NCBI GenBank assembly: GCA_029881175.1
Contig: JAOUNC010000010.1
Span: 1-18,572 of the forward strand
Source: Nitrospirota bacterium
GTDB taxonomy: Bacteria > Nitrospirota > Nitrospiria > Nitrospirales > UBA8639
DNA: 18,572 bases
Direction of reading: 5' to 3'
In this document: piece after piece, positions 102-15,858 of the stretch
Position numbering within the stretch: the stretch's first letter is position 1
Layout of the letters: the number at the start of each line of letters is the position of its first letter
Notes under the pieces: model-generated
The model's input: only the letters and a program-made list of their open reading frames with translations
Database searches by the model: none
Told to the model about the DNA's origin: nothing
Translations under genes and position numbers: made by a program

Positions 102-3100
102 ATGAATAAAACTGAACCGAACCATTTATCGTTGACTCAACGTGAGCAGCTTCGAAAAATTGTGACCGAGGCCTGTGGGCCAATTGGACCGTATTGGCCC
201 ATGAAAACCTTTGCCTATTACAATCCGTTAAGGGATCTTGAGCACTTTCCGTTTGCGGAGGCTATTGGAAAAGCCCAACATTTACTGGGGGGGCAGGGGT
301 TCCTCCCCCCTGAAGAATATCGAAAATTATTTCATCAAGGTCGAATCACCCAGGCTGCCGTTGCACGAGCTCTTCAACGGGTCGGTCCTCCTCTCCCTTC
401 TCCAGCCACTCTTCAAATTGGTGGCCGCACGATTCACGCAAGAGACATCTGGGGGCTTCATGCCAGGTATGGCCTGGAAGCGATGAACCCGATCCTTCTC
501 AAGTGGACCCTTGAAAACGAGGGGGCGACCGCACGGTTCCGATCCGATCTCCCGGAGGATTCTCAGCAAGTCATCATTGACCAAACGATTCGAGAATGTG
601 AGACATGCCGACATGATCCCGAAGTGGCCTATCTGCACAATCTCTGGAAAAGTTCGTTATCCGCCTTCCACTTGTCTGATCCTTTTTCGGGCGGTCATTC
701 CGTGTCGACTACGAATGTCGGGGGGGATTCTGATTCTTCCAACATGTCGGGCAATGCCATTGTGGTGGAATTGCCTCCAGACCGGACATTGGGTGATTGG
801 TTGGATAGTGTCACAGGAAGCACCCAGGTTGAGGCGATCAACCAGCAACTAGTCAAATGGATTGCCGCATTTGTTGACGAGGGGCTTGCAGGATGGAACA
901 TGCCTTCGCGAGAAAAGGGGTTCTACGCCGCCTGGCGAGAACTGGCCCAAGAGGATTATTCGACCAGGCTCCTAGGCATTGCACATGTTCAACAAAAAAT
1001 TCGTGAACTTCCTGATGATGCGGAGGAGGCATTGTTTCAGCATCTTCAGCGTCTGGACATTCCCAGTGCGCGTTGGCATGAATATCTCTCGCGGCACCTG
1101 GCTCAACTACCGGGATGGGCCGGGATGATTCGTTGGCGTGGAGAGAACCCTGGATATCCCGCACAACAACAGTATCCTATAGATCCGCTGCAATATCTGG
1201 CTGTCCGACTCTTTTATGAATCAGGAATCGTGGACGGATTGTGTGAACGGGAATGGGGAATTAGTGGAACTCTTTCTACACTGGTGGCGCATTGGACCAA
1301 ACACCCGGAGAACTATCAGGCCTTAGGGTTCTTTCAGTCCCATGAAGCCGGTCACCAAATGCATGGTGTGTGTCATAAGGCCTGGCGTCTTTTTCATCTT
1401 TCTCAATTTTTAGAATTACGCCCCATTGAGCTGCACGAATTGTCCTTCACCGAGGCTTCGACTTTAATGGAATGGTTGGACCTCTTCCCCAAGGAGGCTC
1501 ATGGGCCGGTATGGCTTGAAGCCTATGAAGAAGGTTACCGGGATTCTCTTCTGAAGAAGATTATTGAACAGCCAGGAGTGGCTTCGCTGGGTGAGGAACG
1601 TCCTCTGGCGCAAGGGATTTTTTGTATCGATGCTCGATCAGAGTCGTTTCGTCGTCATCTGGAGGACCAGGGGTCATATGAAACATTTGGGTATGCGGGG
1701 TTTTTCGGAGTGCCGATGAGTCATGTGGCATTTGATCGTCACGACCACCTGGCTCTGTGCCCCATTTTGTTGACGCCTAATTCGGAAGTTGTCGAGGTTC
1801 CGCGAGTGGGGCAAGATGAGACGCAGCGGAGCTATTTTTCCGGGACTCGGTGGCATCAACTCAGTCACCATCTGTTTCATGATCTTAAACACAATCCCAT
1901 TGCCTCCTTTATGCTCATTGATGTTCTCGGGATGTTTTTTAGCCTCGGGTTGGTTGGGAAAACGCTGTTTCGAACTACGTTCGATACCCTCAAGAATGGT
2001 GTCCACCACTGGCTTGGAAAGCCCGTTGCCACCTATATTCCGGTTGATCGGTCAAGTGAGGAGATGGAAAAGGGAAGCTCTCCAGGTCAGTTAGCTCATG
2101 GCTTTACTCTTCAAGAGCAAGCTGCTTTTGTGGAAGGTGGATTGCGTGTGATCGGGTTGACGAAAAATTTTGGACGGTTTGTCATGGTGTGTGGCCATGG
2201 AAGTCAGTCCGACAATAATCCCTATTATGCGGCCTTGGACTGTGGAGCCTGTGGCGGAAGCCATGGTGACCCGAATGCTCGCGTGTTTGCCGCGATGGCA
2301 AATAACTTGAACGTTCGAGCAATTTTGAAAGAGCATGGTCTGGCCATCCCAGAGGATACCTGGTTTCTTCCAGCCAAGCACAACACGACCACGGATCGCG
2401 TCACATTGTATGACCTGGTTGATATTCCTCCTAGTCATGGTGAGGATTTAAAACAGTTGATCAAGGATTTGGAACAGGCAGGGACTCATCAGGCCGTGGA
2501 ACGCTGTGGCCGAATTCCCGGTGCGCCGACAGCGGTATCGCCACAAGAGGCCTGGAAACATGTCAGAACACGCAGTATGGATTGGGCCAATTCCCGGCCT
2601 GAATGGGGGTTATCAGGAAATGCGGCTTTTTTGATTGGAAGGCGGGCCCTCACCAAGGAACTGGATTTGGGGGGGAGAGTGTTTTTGCATTCCTACGACC
2701 CTGGCTCAGACCCGGAAGGCAGTCTTCTAGAAAAAATCATGACGGCACCTTTGATCGTGGGGGAACTCATTAATTTGACGTATTATTTTTCGGCGGTGGA
2801 TCCTTGGGCCTATGGGAGTGGGAGTAAGGTCATTCACAACATGGTCGGTGGAATTGGTGTGATGTTAGGGAGCCAAAGTGATTTGCAAAAAGGCCTTCCT
2901 CTTCAATCGGTCAATGACGGGGCGCGACATTATCATGAACCCATGCGTCTGTTAGCGATCATTGAAGCGCCGCCAGATCGAATACGGTCTATCATTCAGA
3001 AGCACAGTCTTCTGCAGCATGTCTTTCATCATCAATGGATGAACTTGGTGGCTTTGGATCCGGACTCCCATGTATTTTCACGGTACCTCCCAAATGCAAC

Positions 3101-3128
3101 TTGGGAACCCGTGACTGCCAATACATGA
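102..3128 (+). CDS. dabA: DabA-type inorganic carbon transporter subunit (DUF2309/UPF0753)
   Basis: This 1008-residue protein belongs to the DabA family (DUF2309/UPF0753), the carbonic-anhydrase-like partner of a proton/cation channel in DAB CO2/bicarbonate accumulation complexes. It is expected at the cytoplasmic face of the inner membrane. The zinc site is visible: C508 and D510 in the CIDARS motif, H699 in CGHGSQSDN, and C714 in DCGACGG. The H-to-C spacing of 15 equals that of the known Halothiobacillus DabA site (C351, D353, H524, C539), and R512 follows as in beta-carbonic anhydrases. The family is mostly soluble and I see only weak hydrophobic stretches (around 605-625). The ATG has AGGA eight bases upstream. 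In the classic arrangement dabB (NuoL-like) is adjacent; here the candidate partner lies 4.6 kb downstream, beyond seven Mrp-type genes. Family assignment is near certain. Coupling to the downstream genes is inferred from position and direction. Confidence 0.95.
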   Translation: MNKTEPNHLSLTQREQLRKIVTEACGPIGPYWPMKTFAYYNPLRDLEHFPFAEAIGKAQHLLGGQGFLPPEEYRKLFHQGRITQAAVARALQRVGPPLPSPATLQIGGRTIHARDIWGLHARYGLEAMNPILLKWTLENEGATARFRSDLPEDSQQVIIDQTIRECETCRHDPEVAYLHNLWKSSLSAFHLSDPFSGGHSVSTTNVGGDSDSSNMSGNAIVVELPPDRTLGDWLDSVTGSTQVEAINQQLVKWIAAFVDEGLAGWNMPSREKGFYAAWRELAQEDYSTRLLGIAHVQQKIRELPDDAEEALFQHLQRLDIPSARWHEYLSRHLAQLPGWAGMIRWRGENPGYPAQQQYPIDPLQYLAVRLFYESGIVDGLCEREWGISGTLSTLVAHWTKHPENYQALGFFQSHEAGHQMHGVCHKAWRLFHLSQFLELRPIELHELSFTEASTLMEWLDLFPKEAHGPVWLEAYEEGYRDSLLKKIIEQPGVASLGEERPLAQGIFCIDARSESFRRHLEDQGSYETFGYAGFFGVPMSHVAFDRHDHLALCPILLTPNSEVVEVPRVGQDETQRSYFSGTRWHQLSHHLFHDLKHNPIASFMLIDVLGMFFSLGLVGKTLFRTTFDTLKNGVHHWLGKPVATYIPVDRSSEEMEKGSSPGQLAHGFTLQEQAAFVEGGLRVIGLTKNFGRFVMVCGHGSQSDNNPYYAALDCGACGGSHGDPNARVFAAMANNLNVRAILKEHGLAIPEDTWFLPAKHNTTTDRVTLYDLVDIPPSHGEDLKQLIKDLEQAGTHQAVERCGRIPGAPTAVSPQEAWKHVRTRSMDWANSRPEWGLSGNAAFLIGRRALTKELDLGGRVFLHSYDPGSDPEGSLLEKIMTAPLIVGELINLTYYFSAVDPWAYGSGSKVIHNMVGGIGVMLGSQSDLQKGLPLQSVNDGARHYHEPMRLLAIIEAPPDRIRSIIQKHSLLQHVFHHQWMNLVALDPDSHVFSRYLPNATWEPVTANT

Positions 3129-3594
3129 CTTGTGAAGCGGAAGAAACGTATGTTGAATCTGAAGAAGCACAGAATTCCTCCTCTTTTCGATAGGAGATTG
3201 TTGTGCATAGGGCTTTCGGTTGCCTCTATAGGGGCAGGTAGCCCCAAGTCAGATGGACATAGGACTCCACCATCATTTTTCCCTTTGCCTCGGAGTTGTG
3301 GATGGAATGTGGTGCTTGGTATAAGTTCAGAGGTCTATGTATTTTGAAAAAGATGAGGCCTCTTTTTAAATCGGCTGGACACCGAGTAGCGAGAGTGGGA
3401 ACATCTGGTTTGCCGAAACAGCATTCATAATGGTTGTAGGGTTTTCAGTTTTTCTGTATTTCAGGATAGGCTGGAGACAGTGCAAGCCAACCAGGTTTTT
3501 TTGAACACCTCATTCGAAAAATCTGTGGTTGGCTTTTTTTGTATCGTGTGGGGTTCATCGGGAAGAGCCCAACATGTTCGGGAGATTGCAGACC
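3129..3594 (+). other. Intergenic region between dabA and mnhE
   Basis: About 465 bases with no convincing gene; the short open frames here have no RBS or recognisable protein. It holds a weak A-stem/T-stem hairpin centred on the palindrome GAGGCCTC (AAAAAGA at 3347-3353, TCTTTTT at 3361-3367). This could act as a bidirectional terminator for dabA. A much stronger hairpin follows at 3484-3535. This is the only long gap between dabA and its downstream partners, so dabA expression may be separated from, or attenuated relative to, the Mrp genes. Confidence 0.5.
3484..3540 (+). terminator. Strong hairpin with T-run: terminator or attenuator ahead of mnhE
   Basis: A perfect 10-bp outer stem is formed by AAGCCAACCA (3484-3493) and TGGTTGGCTT (3526-3535). 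Inside it is a second 9-bp stem, TTTTTTGAA (3497-3505) with TTCGAAAAA (3513-3521), with one G-U pair and a 7-base loop (CACCTCA). The T-run reaches 3540. The hairpin ends only 33-54 bases before the possible mnhE starts, which leaves little room for a separate promoter. A conditional (attenuator-like) role in read-through from dabA is therefore plausible. Function is inferred from structure alone. Confidence 0.6.
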
Positions 3595-4086
3595 ATGAAG
3601 TCGTCTTTTCCGAAACAGTTTATGGCAAAAGGCCTAGCCCTTTTCGGCGTCTGGCTTGTCTTGTCGGGACGCTATGACCTTTTTCATCTGATCATAGGTT
3701 TTATAGTTGCCTGTGGCGTGGCCTGGTTAAATACCGGCTATTCTCATGCTGCCTTTCAGCAATTTCCATGGGTGCGGTCCGTGCTGTATGTCCCTTGGCT
3801 CTTTCTGCGGATTGTTCAGAGTAGTCTGCATTTGACTAAACTCATCCTTACTCGGTCCTTACCCATTCATCCCAAGCTGATTTCCTATCGGTCTCATTTG
3901 CAGCATCAGGGTGCGATCGTGCTGCTGGCGAATTCCGTGACCTTAACCCCTGGCACCATTACGGTGGAACTCAACGGGAACCACTTGTTGGTTCATGCCA
4001 TTGATGAGGTGGCCGCCGAGGATCTCACGAGCGGTCGGATGGAGAGAAAAATTGCCGGAGTGTTTCAGCAGGAGGCGAAGCGGTGA
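3595..4086 (+). CDS. mnhE: Mrp-type antiporter subunit E
   Basis: MnhE/MrpE-family membrane protein of 163 residues from this ATG. It opens with a hydrophobic helix (ALFGVWLVLSG) and has further membrane segments before a C-terminal cytosolic part. That part holds the family signature ANSVTLTPGTITVEL, followed by a small globular tail. MrpE is a small accessory subunit of multisubunit Na+(K+)/H+ antiporters. Two starts are plausible: ATG 3595 (GGAG eight bases upstream) and ATG 3574 (GGAAG eight bases upstream, 170 residues). The shorter form matches usual family length and N-terminus. Its stop overlaps the mnhF start, indicating translational coupling. It is the first gene of a seven-gene tightly packed run to mnhD. 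Confidence 0.88.
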   Translation: MKSSFPKQFMAKGLALFGVWLVLSGRYDLFHLIIGFIVACGVAWLNTGYSHAAFQQFPWVRSVLYVPWLFLRIVQSSLHLTKLILTRSLPIHPKLISYRSHLQHQGAIVLLANSVTLTPGTITVELNGNHLLVHAIDEVAAEDLTSGRMERKIAGVFQQEAKR

Positions 4087-4352
4087 TGACAGAATTTTTT
4101 CTGATGGTGCTAATTGTGCTTTCCCTCCTGATTCTCGTGTATTTGTACCGGGTCATTCAGGGCCCGACGGTTTTTGATCGGGTGTTGGGGCTGAATGGGA
4201 TTTCGACCAAAGCCATTATATTGGTCGTGGTCATGGGCACGGTCTATGATCGTGTGGACATGTTCGTCGATATTTCTACCGGGTATGCCCTTCTGAACTT
4301 GGTCGGGGCCTTTGCTATTGCCAAATTTCTTGAGCAGCGAGGCAACTTGTAA
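4086..4352 (+). CDS. mnhF: Mrp-type antiporter subunit F
   Basis: MnhF/MrpF of 88 residues with three predicted membrane helices. The family signature is clear: YRVIQGPTVFDRVLGLNG near residues 20-38 (the R-GP-x-x-x-DR-x-x-x-x-N pattern), then a helix ending in LVGAFAIAKFLE. The ATG at 4086 shares its A with the mnhE TGA. A GTG one codon earlier (4083) is seven bases from the GGAGG at 4071-4075 and may be the real initiator, adding one Met. MrpF is a core small subunit; in known Mrp structures E, F and G form one end of the assembly. Confidence 0.9.
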   Translation: MTEFFLMVLIVLSLLILVYLYRVIQGPTVFDRVLGLNGISTKAIILVVVMGTVYDRVDMFVDISTGYALLNLVGAFAIAKFLEQRGNL

Positions 4353-4652
4353 ATGGTTATCCTGGCGATTGCGTTTATCCTGGTGGGCCTGTTTTTTCTC
4401 GTGGTTGCGGCGATTGGCACGTTGCGTCTTCCCGATGTGTTTACACGGTCGCATGCGGTTTCCTTGACCGATTCGTTGGGGGCATTTTGTGTGTTGTTTG
4501 GGCTGTCTCTGTATCAGGGGTTTGGTATTAATATGTTAAAGATCCTGGTTGTGCTGGGCTTGCTCTTTCTGCTGAATCCCGTCATTGCCCATGCCACTCT
4601 TCGCGCCGCGTATCGGGTAGGTGTCAAGCCAAAGGCGGAGGAAGACGCATGA
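4353..4652 (+). CDS. mnhG: Mrp-type antiporter subunit G
   Basis: MnhG/MrpG of 99 residues with three membrane helices. The hallmark loop RLPDVFTRSHAVSLTDSLG between the first and second helices matches the family RLPD-x-x-x-R-x-HA pattern. The start ATG follows the mnhF TAA with no gap, and the RBS is weak (GCGAGG inside mnhF), suggesting coupled translation. Its stop overlaps the next start as ATGA. It is a small structural subunit with no catalytic residues expected. Confidence 0.92.
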   Translation: MVILAIAFILVGLFFLVVAAIGTLRLPDVFTRSHAVSLTDSLGAFCVLFGLSLYQGFGINMLKILVVLGLLFLLNPVIAHATLRAAYRVGVKPKAEEDA

Positions 4653-5182
4653 TCTATGCGGTGAATATTGCCCTGCTGTTGCTCTTATTGGTGACGGCAG
4701 CTAGCGCAACGTTTTTGGTGAAGGAATTGATGAGTTCGGTCTTTATCTTGGGCTCATACAGTTTCTTCCTGGCTTTGGTCTGGGCCTGGCTGGGTGCGGT
4801 AGATGTGGCATTTGTGGAGGCAGTGATTGGGGCCGGGTTGGCGACCGTGTTGTTTCTGATTACCTTGTTTGATACGGCTCCAAAAGACAGCCGTCTTCGT
4901 CGTCCACCTCCGCCATTGGCTGGAGTGCTGGGGCTTCCCTTACTGGGCATTCTCCTCTTATTCGCGGCGAATGATCTTTGGCCGTTTGGTGATCCGACCT
5001 CTCCGCCCAACATCCACATTTCTCCGGTGTACCTGCAGCAAAGTTTTGCGGACACGCTGACGCCCAATGTGGTCACATCAGTGCTCATGGACTATCGTGG
5101 GTTTGATACGCTGATTGAAACCGTGGTGATTTTTACCGCCGGGATTGCTTGTGCCTTGCTACTCAGGGAGCCCGGTCGATGA
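4649..5182 (+). CDS. MbhD-MbhE-like protein (stand-alone MrpA C-terminal region, DUF4040)
   Basis: A 177-residue membrane protein equivalent to the C-terminal part of MrpA. Residues about 1-85 are MbhD/DUF4040-like, with the motif D52-x-x-x-x-E57 in AVDVAFVEAVIGAGLAT; D and E here are the family's membrane acidic residues. A proline-rich linker (RRPPPP) follows. The tail from about N140 (NVVTSVLMDYRGFDTLIET) matches the MbhE-like end of MrpA (NVV-x-x-x-L-x-D-x-RGFDT). In canonical Mrp systems these domains are fused to the NuoL-like MrpA; here they are a separate gene and the NuoL-like part is encoded 2.6 kb downstream. GGAGGA lies six bases before the ATG, which overlaps the mnhG stop; its own stop overlaps mnhB. 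Confidence 0.82.
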   Translation: MIYAVNIALLLLLLVTAASATFLVKELMSSVFILGSYSFFLALVWAWLGAVDVAFVEAVIGAGLATVLFLITLFDTAPKDSRLRRPPPPLAGVLGLPLLGILLLFAANDLWPFGDPTSPPNIHISPVYLQQSFADTLTPNVVTSVLMDYRGFDTLIETVVIFTAGIACALLLREPGR

Positions 5183-5628
5183 AACGAATGCACGACAGTC
5201 TGATCGTCCAGACCATGAGTCAGTTGCTCATTCCTCTAGCCCAGTTATTTGCCCTGTATGTCTTGTTCTTCGGTCAGTATGGTCCGGGAGGAGGGTTTGT
5301 GGCTGGCGTGATTTGGACGACGAGCATGATCTTGACCTTTTTAGTGTTCGGGCTGAAGTCCCCCCAGGGGCGCTTCGTAGAAAAGATGCTGCATGGAGAT
5401 GGCCTGGGATTGATTGTTTTTGTCGGTGTCGGCGGTCTCTGTCTCATCGGTGGAGGAGAGTTTTTGAACTATGCCCACCTGGATATTCCAGGTGTAGATG
5501 CTCCTGCACGCCGGTATATTGGAATTCTCTTGGCGCAAATCGGGGTCGCCATTGATGTAGCGGTGACTGGGATCTCTATTGTGCTGAGCCTGGCCTATCA
5601 CGATACTGAACAGGAATATGATGTTTGA
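5179..5628 (+). CDS. mnhB: Mrp-type antiporter subunit B
   Basis: MnhB/MrpB of 149 residues. The signature GQYGPGGGFVAGVI (residues about 33-46) matches the family GHN-x-PGGGF-x-G loop, though His is replaced by Gln and Asn by Tyr. Four membrane helices are evident. The start ATG overlaps the preceding TGA (ATGA), with GGGAG about nine bases upstream; the open frame extends ten codons further back but that would run deep into the previous gene. The 3' end overlaps mnhC by eleven bases. MrpB is a structural/ion-pathway subunit next to the MbhD-like part. Confidence 0.9.
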   Translation: MKRMHDSLIVQTMSQLLIPLAQLFALYVLFFGQYGPGGGFVAGVIWTTSMILTFLVFGLKSPQGRFVEKMLHGDGLGLIVFVGVGGLCLIGGGEFLNYAHLDIPGVDAPARRYIGILLAQIGVAIDVAVTGISIVLSLAYHDTEQEYDV

Positions 5629-5998
5629 GTTGATCCAAGGGTGGCTGCAGCGTCCCAATTACATCGCGTTCGTGCTGTTATTTCTGTGGGGTATTTATAT
5701 CATGGTGACCCGGTATAACCTCGTGAAGAAACTCATCGGGATGTATCTCATGCAAACTAGTGTCATCTTCTTCCTGGTAACGACCAGTGCCAAGCAAGGC
5801 GCCACGGTGCCCATCTTACTGTCCACCACCGAGGCTATTCAGCCTGAAGTTTATACGAATCCTCTTCCTCATGTGTTGACCTTGACGGCCATTGTGGTGG
5901 GGGTCGCCACCCTGGGGGTCTCCTTGGCCCTGGCCGATGCCATTTATAAAAAATACGGCAGCCTGGATGAGGAAGAGATTCTTAAAAGGATGGAATGA
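5618..5998 (+). CDS. mnhC: Mrp-type antiporter subunit C (NuoK homologue)
   Basis: MnhC/MrpC of 126 residues, homologous to complex I subunit NuoK. Three membrane helices are visible. The last carries the conserved NPLPHVLTLTAIVVGVA stretch, matching the family DPLPQALVLTAIVI pattern with Asn for Asp. Two successive ATGs (5618 and 5621) could initiate. The start overlaps mnhB and the stop overlaps mnhD as ATGA. The middle contains YLMQTSVIFF, which fits the NuoK-type second helix. Confidence 0.93.
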   Translation: MMFELIQGWLQRPNYIAFVLLFLWGIYIMVTRYNLVKKLIGMYLMQTSVIFFLVTTSAKQGATVPILLSTTEAIQPEVYTNPLPHVLTLTAIVVGVATLGVSLALADAIYKKYGSLDEEEILKRME

Positions 5999-7464
5999 CG
6001 CGACACCTTCCCGCGATCCTTTTTCTGTTGCCCCTGGTATTAGCCATTTGTCTGCCGCTTATTGGCCTCAAGCACCGGGAATGGTGCCGGCCATTGGCCA
6101 TTACCACCTTGGTCGGAATGGTTCTGGTCTCCGTGGCCAATCTGGCGGGAATTCTTCAAACCGGCACGATTCATTATGCCTTTGGGGGATGGGCCGCCCC
6201 GGTCGGGATTGAGTGGGTGGCTGACGGATTGGCCGGCGTGTTGACAGTCGCCCTTAGCCTTGTTGGTTTGGTGTGTGTCATCTTCCTCAGCTCGGTCTTG
6301 TTTCCCTATCTGGGTAGCCGAATTGTTCCGTTTTATACGCTGGTCTTGCTCTTGATCGCCAGTCTGACCGGGATGGTGTTCGCCGGTGACTTGTTCAATC
6401 TCTTCGTGTTTTTAGAAGTGTCCGCGTTGTGCGCCTATGCCTTGGTGGGATTGGCTGGGGGAAAAGCCCTTTTTGCGGGTTTTCGCTATTTAATTCTGGG
6501 TACCTTTGGCGCCTCATTGTATCTCCTTGGAGTGGGGTACTTGTATGCGGAAACAGGCACGCTCAATATGGCGGACTTGGCCCTGCGGGTACCGCCCTTG
6601 GTTGGGTCAAAGGCTATCGCGGTCGGGGTGTTGTTCATGTTTATTGGGCTGGGGATCAAGATGGCCTTGGTGCCGCTTCACGGGTGGTTGCCGGATGCTT
6701 ATGCCTATGCTCCAGACCGTGTCTCTCCCATGCTGGCCTCGTTAGTGACCAAGGTGGCTTTATATGGATGGATTCGCATTATGTTTTGGGTGCTGGGGGC
6801 GCATGCCGTCGTGTACCAAATTCCCGTTCTGTTTTTAGTGGGATTCTTGGGAGCGGTGGCCGCGTTGATAGGTGCCTTCCTGGCCTTGTCCCAGGAAAAT
6901 ATTAAACGCATGTTTGCCTATGGAGGGCTTTCGCATATCGGGTTGGTTCTGGTGGGGATTAGTCTCGGGAATCAAACTGGATTTGCCGGGGGAGTGTTTT
7001 ATCTTTTGAATGATGCGGTGATGCAAGCTGGGTTGTTTTTCTGGGCAGGGGCCATTATTCATCTATATGGGGTTCGCAATATTGAGGACCTGACGCGATT
7101 GCATGGGGCCCCGGGTTGGATGTCGGTGGCCCTTGTGGTCATTGCCCTTTCGATGATCGGGATTCCTCCAACCGGTGGGTTTTTTGGCAAATGGTATATC
7201 ATTCTTGGCGCGGTGGAAGCGCAGAACTACCTGGCCATTGCGGCGGTGCTTATCGCGACCTTGTTAACGCTCGCCTATTTCCTGAAATTATTTGAACGGG
7301 TGTTTCGTGAAAGGTCGGCTGACCAGCCTCCCCTCATCCGTGAGGTGCCGTTGGCGGTGCGGGTGAGTCTCGGCGCCACATCGGTGGCGGTCATTGTTTT
7401 GGGGCTCATGAGCGATCACATTGTGAGCTTTCTCCTCAAGAACGCGGTTCCACCTGGGCTTTAG
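5995..7464 (+). CDS. mnhD: Mrp-type antiporter subunit D (NuoN/NuoM-like ion channel subunit)
   Basis: A 489-residue proton-antiporter-type (Proton_antipo_M) protein with about 14 membrane helices. The channel residues are present: E141 in the FLEVSALCAYALVG helix, K222 in GLGIKMALVPLHGWLPDAY, and K253 in SLVTKVALYGW. These correspond to the conserved Glu, helix-7 Lys and helix-8 Lys of Mrp D and complex I antiporter subunits. APDRVSPMLASLVTKVALYG is characteristic of the MrpD/MbhH side rather than NuoM. AAAGGA precedes the ATG, which overlaps the mnhC stop. It ends the compact gene run; the next gene is 300 bases away across a repeat element. Confidence 0.92.
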   Translation: MTRHLPAILFLLPLVLAICLPLIGLKHREWCRPLAITTLVGMVLVSVANLAGILQTGTIHYAFGGWAAPVGIEWVADGLAGVLTVALSLVGLVCVIFLSSVLFPYLGSRIVPFYTLVLLLIASLTGMVFAGDLFNLFVFLEVSALCAYALVGLAGGKALFAGFRYLILGTFGASLYLLGVGYLYAETGTLNMADLALRVPPLVGSKAIAVGVLFMFIGLGIKMALVPLHGWLPDAYAYAPDRVSPMLASLVTKVALYGWIRIMFWVLGAHAVVYQIPVLFLVGFLGAVAALIGAFLALSQENIKRMFAYGGLSHIGLVLVGISLGNQTGFAGGVFYLLNDAVMQAGLFFWAGAIIHLYGVRNIEDLTRLHGAPGWMSVALVVIALSMIGIPPTGGFFGKWYIILGAVEAQNYLAIAAVLIATLLTLAYFLKLFERVFRERSADQPPLIREVPLAVRVSLGATSVAVIVLGLMSDHIVSFLLKNAVPPGL

Positions 7465-7496
7465 TGGGATCGGGGTTAAGGTGTGCTTCTGATATA

Positions 7497-7692
7497 GGAA
7501 TGTTGAAAAAAGCCACCAGCGGCGTTCCCTGCCCTCGCCGTAGCGGCTTCGCGCAGGCAGGTCGCCCTTTTGTTGTGCTCACGCACTGGGAGTACGCTCC
7601 GCGCCTCAAAAGGGCTGTGGGCTTTCCTTCGGCATGGCTCAGAACAGGACGGACCCTTCGAAAGGCTCAGGGCATGCTTTTTTGACCATTCC
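7497..7692. repeat. MITE/REP-like inverted-repeat element inserted between mnhD and the nuoL-like gene
   Basis: A 196-bp element with imperfect terminal inverted repeats: GGAATGTTGAAAAAAGC at 7497-7513, and at 7676-7692 a sequence whose reverse complement is GGAATGGTCAAAAAAGC (15 of 17 match). Inside are shorter palindromes: CCTGCC/GGCAGG, and GCCCTTTTG paired with CAAAAGGGC. A CCTTCGAAAGGCTCAGGGC segment resembles a motif I recall as widely dispersed in bacterial genomes. Both outer flanks also carry TTCTGATAT in opposite orientation. A 73-codon open frame inside (7464-7685) is an artefact of the repeat. No transposase is present, so any mobility would depend on another element. The whole gap 7465-7766 contains no gene. 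Confidence 0.65.
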
Positions 7693-7766
7693 CGTTAGCT
7701 GACTGATATCAGAATTTTCCTGGCCCATATGTGGGCTATTATCGAGGATTATTCAACAGGCCCGAT

Positions 7767-9944
7767 ATGACATTTTTCATCCTCATTCCCTTTCTTCCGC
7801 TCATGGCGGTGCTGATGCTTGTGCTGGGGAAACCCTGGCTTGGAGAGCAAGGTCATAAGATCGGCATTCCCGCGATGGCCCTATCCTTTGGTTTTTCTCT
7901 CATGGCGTTTGTGCAGGTGGTCTCCCACGGGGCCTTCCTCATTCCCCTCTATCGACTGATTCATTCCGGAGACCTGGTTGTCGATTTGGGGCTCTATGTT
8001 GACCAACTCACCGTGTTGCTTCTGCTCCTGGTCACTGGAGTGAGTAGCGTGGTGCATGTGTACTCGTCCCGTTATATGATCGGCGATCCCCGGTATAACC
8101 GGTTCTTTGCGGTTATTGCCTTGTTCACTTTTTCTATGATCATGCTGGTCATGAGCAATAATCTGCTCATGATGTATGTGTTTTGGGAGATCATGGGGAT
8201 TTGCTCCTATTTGTTGATTGCTCATTGGGGCGAACGGCAGTCATCTGCTCAGGCCGCCACCAAAGCCTTTTTATTTAATTCGGTGGCTGATGTGGGCTTA
8301 GGTTTTGGAGTCATTCTGACCTATTCTACCTTTGGAACGCTGGATATCCAGACGATCTTGGCGGCAGCCGGGTCCATGCAGGGAACCACGATCAACCTGT
8401 TGGGGGGGGTGGGATTGGATGTTCCCGTTCACGTTTTAACTCTCATCACCATTTTTTTATTCATGGGGGCCATGGGAAAGTCCGCACAGGTGCCCTTCCA
8501 CGTCTGGCTCCCCTTTGCCATGGAAGCTCCCACGCCCGTTTCGGCCTTGATTCATGCCGCAACCATGGTCAATGCCGGACCCTTCTTGTTGGTTCGCATG
8601 AGTCCCCTCGTGATACTTTCGCCTGAAGCCATGATATTCATTGCGGTGATCGGAGGCATGACCGCGCTCTTTGCGACGGTCGTCTCCCTGACGCAGGTGG
8701 ATATTAAGCGCATGCTGGCGTTTTCCACGATTGGTCAAATCGGGTTTATGGTCATGACCTGCGGGGTCGGAGCCTTTGTGGTGTCGATTTTTCATATGCT
8801 GGCTCATGGATGTTTGAAGGCATTTTTATTTTTATCGACAGGAAATGCCCTCCGGTCAGTTGGTGCGCATGGGCGTGAATCCCCATCGGTCCCTCGACAT
8901 GGAGGCGCCACCCCTTACATGTGGCCATTTGTGTTAGGGGCGGTCCTGTTAGCCTGTTTCCCCCCTTTCCTTCTTTTCTCAGGGCCGTATGAACAATTGT
9001 GGATGGCTCAACCTCTGGCTTCCGCCCAATGGACATTTTGGATTCTGGGATTTCTGACGGTATTCTTCTCAGCCATGTATGTCATGAGGGGAGTTCTGGT
9101 CTTGTTTCATCAACCGGTATCGGCAGCCCATGGAGATGGAATGGGGTGGCAGGCCATACAGCCGCGTTTCTTCTCCCCCATCCATCTTCTGGGAATTTTG
9201 GCGGTCATTGGAATTGTCGGAAGCCTGTTGTTGATCGTGTGGAGTTGGTTTGCGGAATTTCTGTCTCCGGTTGTTGGTCATCGTGTGGCTCTTATTCAAG
9301 AAGAACCCTCGAGTGGGACGGGCTTGCAACTTATTCTTGCGGTTGCCGTGGCTGTTGGTGGTGTGGCCGTTGGGTACTTTTCCTTGACAAAATTTTCTGG
9401 ATCACGGTTTGGGCAATCTACTATGGGGAAACGTTGGTATGTCCATTTCCTGAATAAATTGTATTTCGACGAACTCTATGAAGCGTATGTTGTCCAGCCC
9501 ACTCTTCGCTTTGCCCAATGGTTGTGGCGCGTGGTCGACCGGCAGGTCTTTGACGCCCTGATCATGGGAATGGCTAGTGTCTCGGTGGTGTCAGCGAAGT
9601 GGTTGTGGCGTGTGGTGGATCTTCGTGGAATCGATGGGGTCGTGGTCGGCCTGGGGCAGCACAGTGTGGGATTGGCTCGATGGTTGTGGCGAGTAGTGGA
9701 TCTTCGTGGTGTGGATCGTGTGGTTGTGGGTATCGGCCAACAAAGCATGGGGATTGCCAACTGGCTCTGGAAAATTATCGACATCAAAGTTCTCGATAAA
9801 CATGTGAATCGCCAGCGGGTACAGGATGAGGCCGCAGGGGACATGAGGCAGGAGCTAGAGCCTCGTACGTTACAGCATCACTTGCTGGTGATGATTTTCT
9901 GGCTCATTGTAGGGATGGGACTGTTGTTCTGGTTTGTCGTGTGA
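7767..9944 (+). CDS. NuoL/MrpA/DabB-like ion-translocating subunit with four C-terminal tandem repeats
   Basis: A 725-residue antiporter-type membrane protein of the NuoL/MrpA/DabB superfamily and the likely functional partner (DabB role) of DabA. E141 (VFWEIMG) and K238 (GKSAQVPFHVWLP) are the conserved channel residues, and APTPVSALIHAATMV is intact. The usual Asp (complex I) or Asn (MrpA) after WLP is Phe (F250). After FDELYEAY (567-574), where NuoL normally has one segment before its last helix, there are four 27-residue repeats (585-692, consensus WLWRVVD-x-RG-x-D-x-VVVG). A final membrane helix follows (about 703-725). ATG 7767 has only a weak AGG upstream; GTG 7731 would add 12 polar residues and is less likely because the first helix starts right after M of MTFFILIPFLPL. 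It has no MbhD/E tail, as that is the separate gene at 4649. Confidence 0.9.
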   Translation: MTFFILIPFLPLMAVLMLVLGKPWLGEQGHKIGIPAMALSFGFSLMAFVQVVSHGAFLIPLYRLIHSGDLVVDLGLYVDQLTVLLLLLVTGVSSVVHVYSSRYMIGDPRYNRFFAVIALFTFSMIMLVMSNNLLMMYVFWEIMGICSYLLIAHWGERQSSAQAATKAFLFNSVADVGLGFGVILTYSTFGTLDIQTILAAAGSMQGTTINLLGGVGLDVPVHVLTLITIFLFMGAMGKSAQVPFHVWLPFAMEAPTPVSALIHAATMVNAGPFLLVRMSPLVILSPEAMIFIAVIGGMTALFATVVSLTQVDIKRMLAFSTIGQIGFMVMTCGVGAFVVSIFHMLAHGCLKAFLFLSTGNALRSVGAHGRESPSVPRHGGATPYMWPFVLGAVLLACFPPFLLFSGPYEQLWMAQPLASAQWTFWILGFLTVFFSAMYVMRGVLVLFHQPVSAAHGDGMGWQAIQPRFFSPIHLLGILAVIGIVGSLLLIVWSWFAEFLSPVVGHRVALIQEEPSSGTGLQLILAVAVAVGGVAVGYFSLTKFSGSRFGQSTMGKRWYVHFLNKLYFDELYEAYVVQPTLRFAQWLWRVVDRQVFDALIMGMASVSVVSAKWLWRVVDLRGIDGVVVGLGQHSVGLARWLWRVVDLRGVDRVVVGIGQQSMGIANWLWKIIDIKVLDKHVNRQRVQDEAAGDMRQELEPRTLQHHLLVMIFWLIVGMGLLFWFVV
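9519..9842 (+). repeat. Four in-frame 81-bp tandem repeats in the NuoL-like gene
   Basis: Copies begin at 9519, 9600, 9681 and 9762, exactly 81 bases apart, each opening with TGG encoding WLWRVVD (WLWKIID in the last). Copies 2 and 3 are the closest: 20 of 27 residues and, by my count, 56 of 81 bases. The ends diverge (copy 1 RQVFDALIMG, copy 4 IKVLDKHVNR). This points to internal duplication of a segment in the C-terminal lateral-helix region, with divergence since and the reading frame kept. Confidence 0.9.
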
Positions 9945-10084
9945 TCCTCAGTGAACCTTGCTGTCAGAGAGGGAGAACGAATGCGGCCAACAAGCATTCA
10001 ACGCTCTAGACGTTCTGAAGCAACTTTCAGTGGTTTCGATGCCTTGGTGGTGTCCATGATCGACTTTTCATTAAAGGGGAGTCT

Positions 10085-11593
10085 ATGAATACGATCTTCA
10101 CGGAACATCTTCTCAGTGTCATGATCGCTATCCCATTTTTGGGCATGGCGATTATTGCCTTTATTCATGATCAGGAATGGATTCGGCGGGTGGCGCTTGG
10201 ATGTACCCTTGGGGATTTGGTGCTCTCTCTTGGCCTGTTGAACGGGTTTGATTTTTCCAGCCATGGCATGCAATTCGTGGAGCGTATGGCATGGATGCCC
10301 ACCTTCAATATTCAATATGCCGTCGGGGTGGATGGCATTAGTCTTCTTCTTGTGTTGCTCACGACGCTGCTGTGCCCTTTTTGCGTGCTCTGCTCCTGGA
10401 AATCAATCACCACACGGGTGCGGTCGTTTATGGCGATGATTCTCTTGGTTGAAGGGGCCATGATTGTGGTGTTTACGGCGTTGGACCTGTTTTTGTTTTT
10501 CATGTTGTGGGAAGTCACGATGATTCCCATGTATTTCATGATCATCCTGTGGGGCGGTCCTCAACGCATTGCGGCCGGTATCAAATTTGTCTTGTACAGT
10601 TTGTCAGGAAGCTTGATCCTGTTGCTGGCGATACTCGGGCTGTACGTAGAAGGAGGCCGGACATTTGATATTTTAGCGTTGGCAGAGAAAACCTATTCCC
10701 CCGACGCCCAGTTTTGGATTTTTTTGGCCTTCTTTTTGGCCTTTGCCATTAAACTGCCCATGTTGCCGTTTCACACGTGGCTGCCAGATGCCCATTCCGA
10801 AGCGCCTACTGCTGGAAGTATCCTGTTGGCGGGAGTGCTTTTGAAAATGGGTGGGTATGGATTTTTACGATTTTGTCTTCCCATGTTTCCAGAGGCCTCA
10901 GTGACCTTTGCCCCGTATATCTTGTGGCTGTCAGTGGCGGCCATTGTGTATGGGGGGTATATGGCTTTGGCCCAGTCAGATCTGAAAAAGCTGGTGGCGT
11001 ATTCGTCTGTTTCACATATGGGATTTGTGACGTTGGGAATTTTTGTCTTTAATAACCATGGCATTCAAGGAGCCATTTTGCAAATGGTAAACCATGGTAT
11101 TACCACAGGAGCCCTCTTTTTGGCAGTGGGCCAATTGTATGATCGAACCCATAGCCGATTGATTCAAGATTATGGAGGAGTCCAAAAAACGATGCCTCGG
11201 TTTGTGGCATTCTTTTGTCTCTTTTCCGTGGCATCGTTTGGCTTGCCGGGAACGTGCAATTTTATTGGAGAATTTTTGGTTCTGGTCGGGACATCCTTCG
11301 AAAGTTATGTGATGGTTCTCCTCTCCATGGGCGGGATCGTCCTGGCTGCGGCGTACATGCTCTGGATGTTACAACGAGTAGTCTTGGGGCAACCCAAAAA
11401 TCCCACCATCTCCCAACTGACTGATCTCAGTATGCGAGAATTGGTGACAGTGGTTCCACTTGCGGTTCTTATTTTATGGATTGGTTTGTATCCTTCCCCT
11501 CTCATGGAAATGATGGATGCCAGTGTCACGCACTTAGTTCAACATATGGCGGTGTATCAGTCTCATCTCCCTGATCTTGTCGCGATTCGTTAA
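10085..11593 (+). CDS. NuoM-like ion-translocating subunit
   Basis: A 502-residue NuoM-type (complex I chain M) protein with about 14 membrane helices. Channel residues are all present: E143 (FMLWEVTMIPMYFMI), K223 (AIKLPMLPFHTWLPDAH), K254 (LLKMGGYGFLRF) and E396 (LPGTCNFIGEF). HSEAPTAGSILLAGVLLKMG is diagnostic for NuoM rather than MrpD or NuoL. The start has AAGGGGAG ending three bases before the ATG. It follows the NuoL-like gene by 140 bases with no hairpin evident, so it is probably co-transcribed. No nuoA-K genes are in the window, so this is unlikely to be part of an ordinary complex I operon; it gives the cluster a third antiporter-type channel. Confidence 0.9.
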   Translation: MNTIFTEHLLSVMIAIPFLGMAIIAFIHDQEWIRRVALGCTLGDLVLSLGLLNGFDFSSHGMQFVERMAWMPTFNIQYAVGVDGISLLLVLLTTLLCPFCVLCSWKSITTRVRSFMAMILLVEGAMIVVFTALDLFLFFMLWEVTMIPMYFMIILWGGPQRIAAGIKFVLYSLSGSLILLLAILGLYVEGGRTFDILALAEKTYSPDAQFWIFLAFFLAFAIKLPMLPFHTWLPDAHSEAPTAGSILLAGVLLKMGGYGFLRFCLPMFPEASVTFAPYILWLSVAAIVYGGYMALAQSDLKKLVAYSSVSHMGFVTLGIFVFNNHGIQGAILQMVNHGITTGALFLAVGQLYDRTHSRLIQDYGGVQKTMPRFVAFFCLFSVASFGLPGTCNFIGEFLVLVGTSFESYVMVLLSMGGIVLAAAYMLWMLQRVVLGQPKNPTISQLTDLSMRELVTVVPLAVLILWIGLYPSPLMEMMDASVTHLVQHMAVYQSHLPDLVAIR

Positions 11594-15492: not shown

Positions 15493-15858
15493 ATGGATCC
15501 GCAATCTTCGTTGACCAATGTGTATCACATTTCTGGGATTGATGATCGCGAGCGGGGCTTCAATCGACAAGCCCAGGTGATCGCTTATGGGGATGCGTAC
15601 CGGGCCCGCTTGCGTTATGAAGCCTTGCAGATTGAGGTGGAGTTCGTCGACACGGAAGACGCAGCTTTGCAACGCCTCATTCATACCTTACAGGCGCGTG
15701 GATATACCCAATTGCGCACTCAACGAATCTTTCAAGGTGAACAATATTTAGGCAATCAGGAATTGTGGGTGGATTATCCTGACCCTGACCCTCCAGATGC
15801 GCAATCAGTTTCCTGGTTCTTGAGAGTCCGACAGTTTTTGGGGATTGGGAAAAAGTGA
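15493..15858 (+). CDS. Uncharacterised small cytoplasmic protein
   Basis: A 121-residue soluble protein with no signal peptide or membrane segment; I do not recognise the family. It is rich in aromatic and charged residues, with a beta-like central region (YRARLRYEALQIEVEFVD), a helix (AALQRLIHTLQARGY) and a Pro/Asp-rich patch (DYPDPDPPD). It ends in a basic tail. The RBS is poor (GGGG about seven bases before the ATG). It is transcribed divergently from nhaB across a 212-base gap and converges on the HD-GYP gene. Sequence composition is consistent with a real gene; no function is assigned. Confidence 0.6.
   Translation: MDPQSSLTNVYHISGIDDRERGFNRQAQVIAYGDAYRARLRYEALQIEVEFVDTEDAALQRLIHTLQARGYTQLRTQRIFQGEQYLGNQELWVDYPDPDPPDAQSVSWFLRVRQFLGIGKK

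Follow-up and report, generated by a model that had tools for sequence, protein, structure and literature searches.

Organisation of the cassette

The DNA analysed here (the window, 18,572 nucleotides) is the whole of contig C505 of a Nitrospirota metagenome-assembled genome (MAG) of 3.07 Mb that is 82% complete. From position 102 to 11593 it carries ten genes, all on the plus strand, in the order dabA, mrpE-F-G, an MbhD/E-like gene, mrpB-C-D, a nuoL-like gene and a nuoM-like gene. This set, hereafter the cassette, may encode a membrane complex for the accumulation of dissolved inorganic carbon (DIC). The ten genes and their families had been named in an earlier note made from the letters of the window alone, and Pfam and NCBIfam matches bear them out.

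The first gene, dabA (102 to 3128), encodes a predicted beta-carbonic anhydrase (beta-CA)-like cytoplasmic subunit of 1008 amino acids (PF10070, 865 bits). It has zinc site residues C508, D510, R512, H699 and C714, and finger helices at about residues 572-622 with D607 at the position of E444 of DabA2 from Halothiobacillus neapolitanus. It is followed by mrpE (MnhE; 3595 to 4086; PF01899, 114 bits), whose likely start was set from its relatives, most of which use the same Met, by mrpF (4086 to 4352; PF04066, 47 bits), in which Asp35 of A. flavithermus is replaced by N38 (counted from the GTG at 4083), and by mrpG (4353 to 4652; PF03334, 77 bits; TIGR01300 above cut-off). The gene at 4649 to 5182 matches both MbhD and MbhE (PF13244, PF20501; PRK12504 DUF4040, 158 bits, above cut-off). 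Its product aligns with the C-terminal, NuoJ-like domain of MrpA and appears to be this domain, split off as a separate protein. Then come mrpB (5179 to 5628; PF04039, 74 bits), which carries the PGGGF motif, the NuoK-like mrpC (5618 to 5998; PF00420, 76 bits), with T47 and I50 in place of A. flavithermus His37 and His40, and mrpD (5995 to 7464; PF00361, 199 bits), assigned also by tree and residues, with E144, K234, K265 and the Lys of transmembrane helix 12 (TM12) intact (NuoM numbering).

The nuoL-like gene (7767 to 9944; TIGR01974, 473 bits, above cut-off) encodes a putative DabB equivalent with a long lateral helix. Its likely start was taken from the 725-residue protein P0001, which is the NuoL-like protein of the window. 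In E. coli NuoL numbering it has lost TM12 Lys399/Asp400 and Arg175 and retained Glu144. The nuoM-like gene (10085 to 11593; TIGR01972, 624 bits, above cut-off) has intact proton-channel residues and is nearest to canonical Nitrospirota complex I NuoM. The MrpD, NuoL-like and NuoM-like proteins all match Pfam Proton_antipo_M; the others match MNHE, MrpF_PhaF, PhaG_MnhG, MbhD plus MbhE, MnhB and Oxidored_q2. As the earlier note had stated, no hydrophilic subunit of complex I or of a hydrogenase was found among the ten genes in the Pfam scan; redox subunits of the Mbh/Mbs type (hydrogenase, sulfane reductase) are likewise absent from them, despite the MbhD/E-like gene. Further complex I-type antiporter-like genes of the MAG sit on contigs C194 and C356.

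Conservation, gain and loss of the cassette

A search of genome contigs with the window DabA gave 31 loci, 16 of which (L004-L018 and L020) hold a DabA of the window type, as assigned by similarity and, in 14 of the 16, also by the finger residue. In all 15 loci whose contig continues past dabA, mrpE is the next recognised gene. The full ten-gene order is present in 11 of these 15, the other four contigs ending within the cluster, and it occurs in five further genomes. A chance neighbourhood is ruled out by this order. The other 15 of the 31 loci contain different DabA types and gave no Mrp matches. Cassettes occur in Nitrospirota MAGs, in one MAG each of Nitrospinota, Myxococcota and Woeseiaceae, and in Pseudohaliea rubra (Gammaproteobacteria). 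Marine nitrite oxidizers thus have the gene order in common with a few bacteria unrelated to them, and the survey of synteny suggested in the earlier note finds the order conserved in relatives and across phyla.

Among 198 Nitrospirota genomes, DabA was found in 83 and MnhB in 32. For nine of the 34 MnhB places, a cassette-type DabA lies on the same strand no more than 12 kb upstream: six of these show the plain order, in two a second dab operon has been inserted between dabA and mrpE, and one is decayed. One further MnhB lies about 3 kb from a DabA on the opposite strand, in a different Mrp cluster (L045), and the remaining 24, including that of genome G081, are not near DabA. The L045 cluster (1596-9149, minus strand) is a second, divergent Mrp cluster of split type that has three antiporter-like genes and adjoins a cassette. 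With gene starts as called in this analysis, 7 of 17 loci have dabA and mrpE overlapping or separated by no more than 38 bp.

In seven of the 10 genomes sampled from the family of the window, cassette DabA occurs together with MnhB; both are decayed in G065, G173 has a 38-residue MrpB relic and another DabA type only, and G187 has neither. The decaying cassettes lie near a second dab operon (L043 11771-15178 in G065, with fragmentary dabA and mrpB; L050 16021-16134 in G173, with the mrpB relic). Over 11 cassettes, the distances between DabA proteins correlated with those of MrpD, NuoL and NuoM (r = 0.75, 0.89 and 0.88, respectively; none of 2000 permutations as high), and gene-tree distance correlations overall ranged from r = 0.75 to 0.94. 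The cassette genes thus broadly travel together, their trees not being identical. In L007 (19707-21214) nuoM is split over two frames, possibly through an assembly error.

DabA: zinc site and finger

Residues of DabA were counted in 121 proteins, namely that of the window and the best 120 of 698 database hits. The zinc site, C351, D353, R355, H524 and C539 in DabA2 numbering, is invariant in 121/121. The earlier note had described the zinc residues C508, D510, H699 and C714 as intact, and they correspond to C351, D353, H524 and C539. A catalytically dead DabA is ruled out by the intact site. The window protein has the beta-CA-like fold by which DIC-accumulating complexes (DACs) are recognised. 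At the position of L658 of DAB2 (DabA2-DabB2), where beta-CAs have Gln or His, Leu is found in 121/121 (L837 in the window); the DAB2 structure report states that L658 variants remain active in vivo and that L658Q gained no free activity (PMC13144422).

The acid of the finger is Asp in 120 of the 121 cassette-type proteins; in non-cassette DabA this residue is Glu in 43/45 (24/25 and 19/20 in two sets). As described for the solved DAB2, the finger residue E444 occupies the place of the Lys-Asp pair of NuoL TM12 (PMC13144422). A plasmid search with the window DabA returned 123 records, every one below 60% identity. The DAB2 chains were absent from the fold listings, whose structure library ends on 2026-04-08, which has no bearing on kinship. 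The MAG also holds a second, non-cassette DabA, in pieces across two contigs.

The NuoL-like protein is the putative DabB

The cassette NuoL (11 sequences) is sister to DabB (17), with support of 98/90, in a tree built from 71 antiporter-like proteins. The grouping stays (96/91) after four MrpA and E. coli NuoL are added and long branches are dropped. It stands apart from complex I NuoL and MrpA, all four MrpA falling outside. In the same 71-protein tree, the cassette NuoM is sister to canonical Nitrospirota complex I NuoM and the cassette MrpD to another MrpD.

The residue states point the same way. They were counted in the best 120 of 7,993 NuoL hits, the window's own protein included (E. 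coli numbering). TM12 K399 and D400 are absent in 120/120, R175 is replaced by Ala or Ser in 120/120 and E144 is retained in 120/120; all four residues are retained in Nitrospirota complex I NuoL (4/4). In DabB, Asp400 occurs in 0/17, R175 is kept in 7/17 and E144 is lost in 17/17, the last change breaking the same ion pair that the cassette NuoL breaks via R175. The NuoL-like protein is thus, as judged from tree and residues, the likely DabB equivalent, a role that the earlier note had overlooked. NuoM and MrpD as DabB are ruled out: both keep E144, K234, K265 and the TM12 acid or Lys (11/11 each), and neither groups with DabB.

A genome with dabA and the arm apart

Genome G081 consists of one contig and is rated 100% complete. 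It has only one DabA, which groups with cassette DabA; its dabA and the arm genes are 262 kb apart, and the 20 kb around dabA held no recognised antiporter-like gene. Gene order and tree assign its ten PF00361 genes to 2M complex I (four), canonical complex I (three) and the arm (three), so that no other DabB candidate was seen. Because the same search recovers the DabB of genome G191, a DabB in G081 should have shown up. The DabA of G081 would therefore have to use the arm, unless it is partnered with a complex I subunit or with none.

The Mrp module and sodium

The cassette has Mrp subunits B-G and an MrpA C-terminal domain; its only candidate for the MrpA-type N-terminal antiporter subunit is the NuoL-like protein, which groups with DabB. 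The cation-path residues considered here are those of two papers on Mrp structures (PMC7419157, PMC9568556), in one of which MrpF Asp35 is called invariably conserved. Asp35 is replaced in all 22 cassette MrpF proteins, by Asn (18) or Ala (4), and is present in 4/4 canonical Nitrospirota Mrp (the control loci L090, L091, L092 and L095). MrpC has Thr for His37 and Ile for His40 (22/22 each). The canonical Nitrospirota MrpC proteins themselves have His37 in 2/4 and His40 in 0/4 (Asn), which makes both MrpC sites poor markers of Na+ transport. At the position of MrpA E706 there is a Gly, with an MbhD-type Glu four residues earlier, in 22/24 (two gaps). D792 and E796 of the cation path are retained in 24/24, and the Phe of the MrpB PGGGF motif in 19/20, with one gap. 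Other Mrp clusters of split type (L045, L093, L094, L096) mostly match the cassette in these states.

A canonical Mrp Na+ route is thus unsupported and weakly disfavoured by the loss of Asp35, though Na+ transport may still take place. The Na+ option of the earlier note, which had allowed Na+ or H+ flux, is likewise unsupported but contradicted only weakly, D792/E796 and the PGGGF Phe being kept. Its composite machine fared better: the gene order across phyla, the short dabA-mrpE distances, the shared loss, G081 and the matching residue changes in DabA and NuoL all speak for it.

The lateral helix of NuoL

The cassette NuoL retains a lateral helix and a second anchor helix; 14 of 17 DabB proteins end without the latter, and the remaining three have an extra multi-helix domain. 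The helix is built of 27-residue repeats (WLWRVVDxRxIDxxVxGxxxxSxxxA), with four WLW units in the window (9516 to 9839, plus strand, limits approximate). Tandem Repeats Finder reported no 81-bp array in the nuoL DNA, hence the protein repeats have diverged at the DNA level. In the AlphaFold model of NuoL (mean pLDDT 71.8), residues 567-640 form a single helix at about 57-72, falling below 50 after 629.

The helix comes in four lengths that step by about 27 residues. Measured from [YF]xDExY to LQH, 118 of 131 sequences have spans of 83 (2 sequences), 108-110 (46), 133-137 (52) or 163-164 (18) residues; the pattern did not capture the other 13. When anchored on alignment columns, the helix is 43, 70, 96-97 or 124 residues long (2, 46, 52 and 20 sequences) in 120/120 database homologues. 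P0001 of the window and P0002 are 89% identical and one repeat apart. Motif-anchored lengths are 55 in canonical Nitrospirota complex I, 79 in 2M complex I, 50 in E. coli and 25-30 in four MrpA proteins (anchor placed by eye).

For 2M complex I, it was suggested that NuoL is lengthened to accommodate an extra NuoM (PMC9040806, PMC6606698). The lateral helix of the cassette NuoL might be a modular ruler, each antiporter-like unit being served by a repeat of 27 residues (some 40 angstroms of helix). We consider this idea quite improbable, and it was marked down because complex I falls off the cassette ladder when column-anchored (50 in E. coli, 53, and 67 in 2M), so that comparison between families depends on the anchors. 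If it held, the window NuoL (137) would extend over about five units lined up next to it, which would call for several NuoM copies or for a helix crossing the whole Mrp module, as only NuoM and MrpD are encoded as partners. The DabA-driven arm would then change its gear ratio by whole repeats among close relatives. To our knowledge, such an arm would be longer than any known.

Proposed mechanism and alternatives

Given the gene order, homology, residue states and evolutionary grouping observed, we lean, on balance, towards the cassette encoding one membrane complex for H+-driven, vectorial CO2 hydration, that is, a DAC built on an Mrp-like arm. In its physical assembly, DabA would sit on the NuoL-like subunit, acting as DabB, with the finger entering the site of the lost TM12 Lys-Asp pair and D607 supplying the missing acid of the periplasmic half-channel. 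Through its long lateral helix, NuoL would in turn connect to NuoM, to MrpD and to a small Mrp module made up of MrpC, the MbhD/E-like A', F, G, E and B. The ion would be H+, whose passage through the arm, driven by the membrane potential, would gate DabA so that hydration of CO2 proceeds in one direction and the bicarbonate formed is trapped inside the cell. As to stoichiometry, the extra proton-conducting subunits would mean more ions spent per CO2 and a stronger pull when CO2 is scarce.

Several observations count against a single H+-driven complex. In the lineage of the window, dabA and mrpE are about 466 bp apart and may be transcribed apart; a second dab operon is inserted between them in two genomes; and in G081 dabA has moved away from the arm. 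The DabA tree shares 4, 3 and 5 of 8 splits with those of MrpD, NuoL and NuoM. The finger residue of one DabA hit (P0151) is Glu, and a Lys aligns at 399 in 5/17 DabB and a Glu at 400 in one, so that the TM12 sites are not clean across DabB. The counts over the 120 NuoL and 120 DabA database hits cover residues and not the gene context behind them. The lateral helix is also longer than the two bridged subunits seem to need. The gap in the window and the unlinked dabA of G081 would equally suit two complexes, a simple DabA-NuoL DAC and an Mrp-type antiporter (B-G, A' and NuoM) for pH or salt balance, with the genes clustered since alkaline, carbon-poor water demands both; in papers on Nitrospira, the mrp, nuoL and nuoM genes are indeed annotated as an antiporter (PMC7784846, PMC12342949). 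We nevertheless regard this arrangement as unlikely: besides NuoL, which groups with DabB and not MrpA, there is no MrpA N-terminal subunit for the antiporter, NuoL has the lateral and second anchor helices that are missing in 14/17 DabB, and MrpF Asp35 is replaced in 22/22.

The identity of the driving ion may also be questioned. Na+ entry via the small Mrp module could move H+ through MrpD, NuoM and NuoL to DabA within a single complex. This is a rather doubtful proposal, given the Asn or Ala at MrpF Asp35 (22/22, versus Asp in 4/4 canonical Mrp), the Thr and Ile at MrpC His37 and His40 (22/22) and the report that DAB2 needs no Na+ (PMC13144422). However, nhaB lies in the window, SulP (BicA-like) genes are found nearby in relatives, D792/E796 (24/24) and the PGGGF Phe (19/20) are kept, and staphylococcal MpsAB was argued to be Na+-coupled (PMC6689103). 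Moreover, canonical Nitrospirota MrpC lacks His37 in 2/4 and His40 in 4/4, so that His loss need not end Na+ transport, which raised our estimate for Na+ drive and lowered that for the H+-driven complex. Reverse use, in which CO2 hydration at alkaline internal pH would release energy and protons to power outward ion pumping for pH or ion homeostasis, has been proposed for ybcC operons in general but seems very unlikely to us here. In its favour, the COGNAT authors suggested that several ions are translocated by those ybcC complexes that have more than one membrane subunit (PMC5700660). DAB2 was argued to be activated by proton motive force (PMC13144422), and the Leu at the L658 position (121/121) also speaks against reversal, weakly because L658 variants are active in vivo and L658Q has no free activity.

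Neighbouring genes and host metabolism

Downstream of the cassette, the window holds a 112-residue open reading frame (ORF), an OmpA-family gene, nhaB, a 121-residue ORF, an HD-domain gene and a PAS gene. The 121-residue ORF (15493-15858, plus strand) matches no Pfam family and has relatives near cassettes in L013 (53%) and L048 (51%). The search of the window against Rfam found no known RNA family; promoter-like sites numbered 3 versus 9.1 expected from shuffles and terminator-like sites 18 versus 14.0 (standard deviation 4.6), so that neither kind exceeded the shuffled background.

As the contig starts 101 bases before dabA, the MpsC and SulP neighbours found upstream in relatives are not visible in the window. 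Of 22 cassette loci, some with only a short stretch upstream, 13 have an MpsC-family gene (PF10057; by Pfam for one, by similarity for the others) adjoining dabA. This arrangement (L005 9205-9630, minus strand, and 12 others) contradicts a published statement that confines the linkage of mpsC with mpsAB to staphylococci. One type of SulP (BicA-like) gene lies upstream in 6/22 loci, and other SulP genes occur in L018, L020 and L037. A conserved protein of about 222 residues (start MTQxRxLTHDEKKA) is encoded beside the cassette, upstream or downstream, in 13/22 loci (for instance L005 8362-9030, minus; L009 21230-21904, plus; L042 15418-16155, plus); the one scanned matched no Pfam family. A non-cassette dab operon (L036 7918-14544, minus) comprises DabB, a protein with about nine hydrophobic helices and no Pfam family, DabA and a P-II gene. 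Another DabA locus with several antiporter-like genes is L116 (G154 C39 250001-260000), in which matches to NuoM, NuoM, NuoL, DabA and NuoM lie on one strand and a Leu aligns with the finger position.

The MAG of the window encodes the citrate-binding domain of ATP-citrate lyase and gave no RuBisCO match, in keeping with a reductive tricarboxylic acid cycle. The gammaproteobacterial hosts G198 and G199 (one a MAG, maybe incomplete) gave no match to RuBisCO or the ATP-citrate lyase domain, so in these hosts the bicarbonate more probably feeds ordinary carboxylations than autotrophic growth. The expectation of the earlier note that such groupings occur in autotrophs thus held in part, these two hosts standing outside it.

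Comparison with known systems

Most relatives of complex I serve redox chemistry or antiport. If the single-complex reading is right, a carbonic anhydrase-type enzyme mounted on an almost complete Mrp/complex I membrane arm would add a non-redox, carbon-capturing branch to their superfamily, a relation of the two-subunit DAB to larger arms would be suggested, and marine nitrite oxidizers would gain a DIC-uptake system currently annotated as a salt antiporter. The cassette can be recognised in sequence data by its finger Asp/Glu and TM12 signatures, and its stepwise lateral helix is a natural case on which to test what determines the length of complex I-like arms. At the level of genomes, the cassette appears to be a variant of the DAC kind.

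In cyanobacterial NDH-1MS (CupA, NdhF3, NdhD3), a CO2-hydrating subunit likewise sits on NuoL/NuoM-type subunits of a larger arm, but CupA is not known to be a DabA homologue and NDH-1MS retains the complex I-type remainder. The mps operon of Staphylococcus aureus, which is not known to contain Mrp genes, encodes homologues of DabA and DabB, and an MpsC-family gene lies near cassette dabA as well; MpsAB, unlike the complex proposed here, was argued to use Na+ (PMC6689103). The best-studied machine of this kind is DAB2 of H. neapolitanus (PDB 9rd0), which shares the PF10070 DabA, the zinc site, the finger motif and a NuoL-derived DabB, the finger acid replacing NuoL K399/D400 there. DAB2 has a single membrane subunit, whereas the cassette adds the arm genes and the long NuoL lateral helix, has Asp and not Glu at the finger, and has lost Arg175 and kept Glu144, the reverse of the pair in DAB2.

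In the COGNAT study of 2017, clade C of ybcC (COG3002) had ybcC upstream of nuoL, with NuoM (COG1008) and SulP (COG0659) as neighbours, and multi-subunit energy-converting complexes were proposed for ybcC operons (PMC5700660); its description of these operons puts no Mrp B-G beside ybcC, where the present cassette has them, and gives no residue changes. No mention of a link between DabA and Mrp was found in the open-access literature, subscription papers, supplements and preprints lying outside the search. A neighbourhood closely resembling the window has been described in Ca. Nitrospira alkalitolerans and Nitrospirales lineage IV as 'Group 3 Mrp'; there, mrp genes are followed by two NuoM/NuoL-like genes, and the locus also holds nhaB, bicA and motB. 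In contrast to the DAC proposed here, it was published as a Na+/H+ antiporter, and the word DabA does not occur in the texts of the two papers (PMC7784846, PMC12342949).

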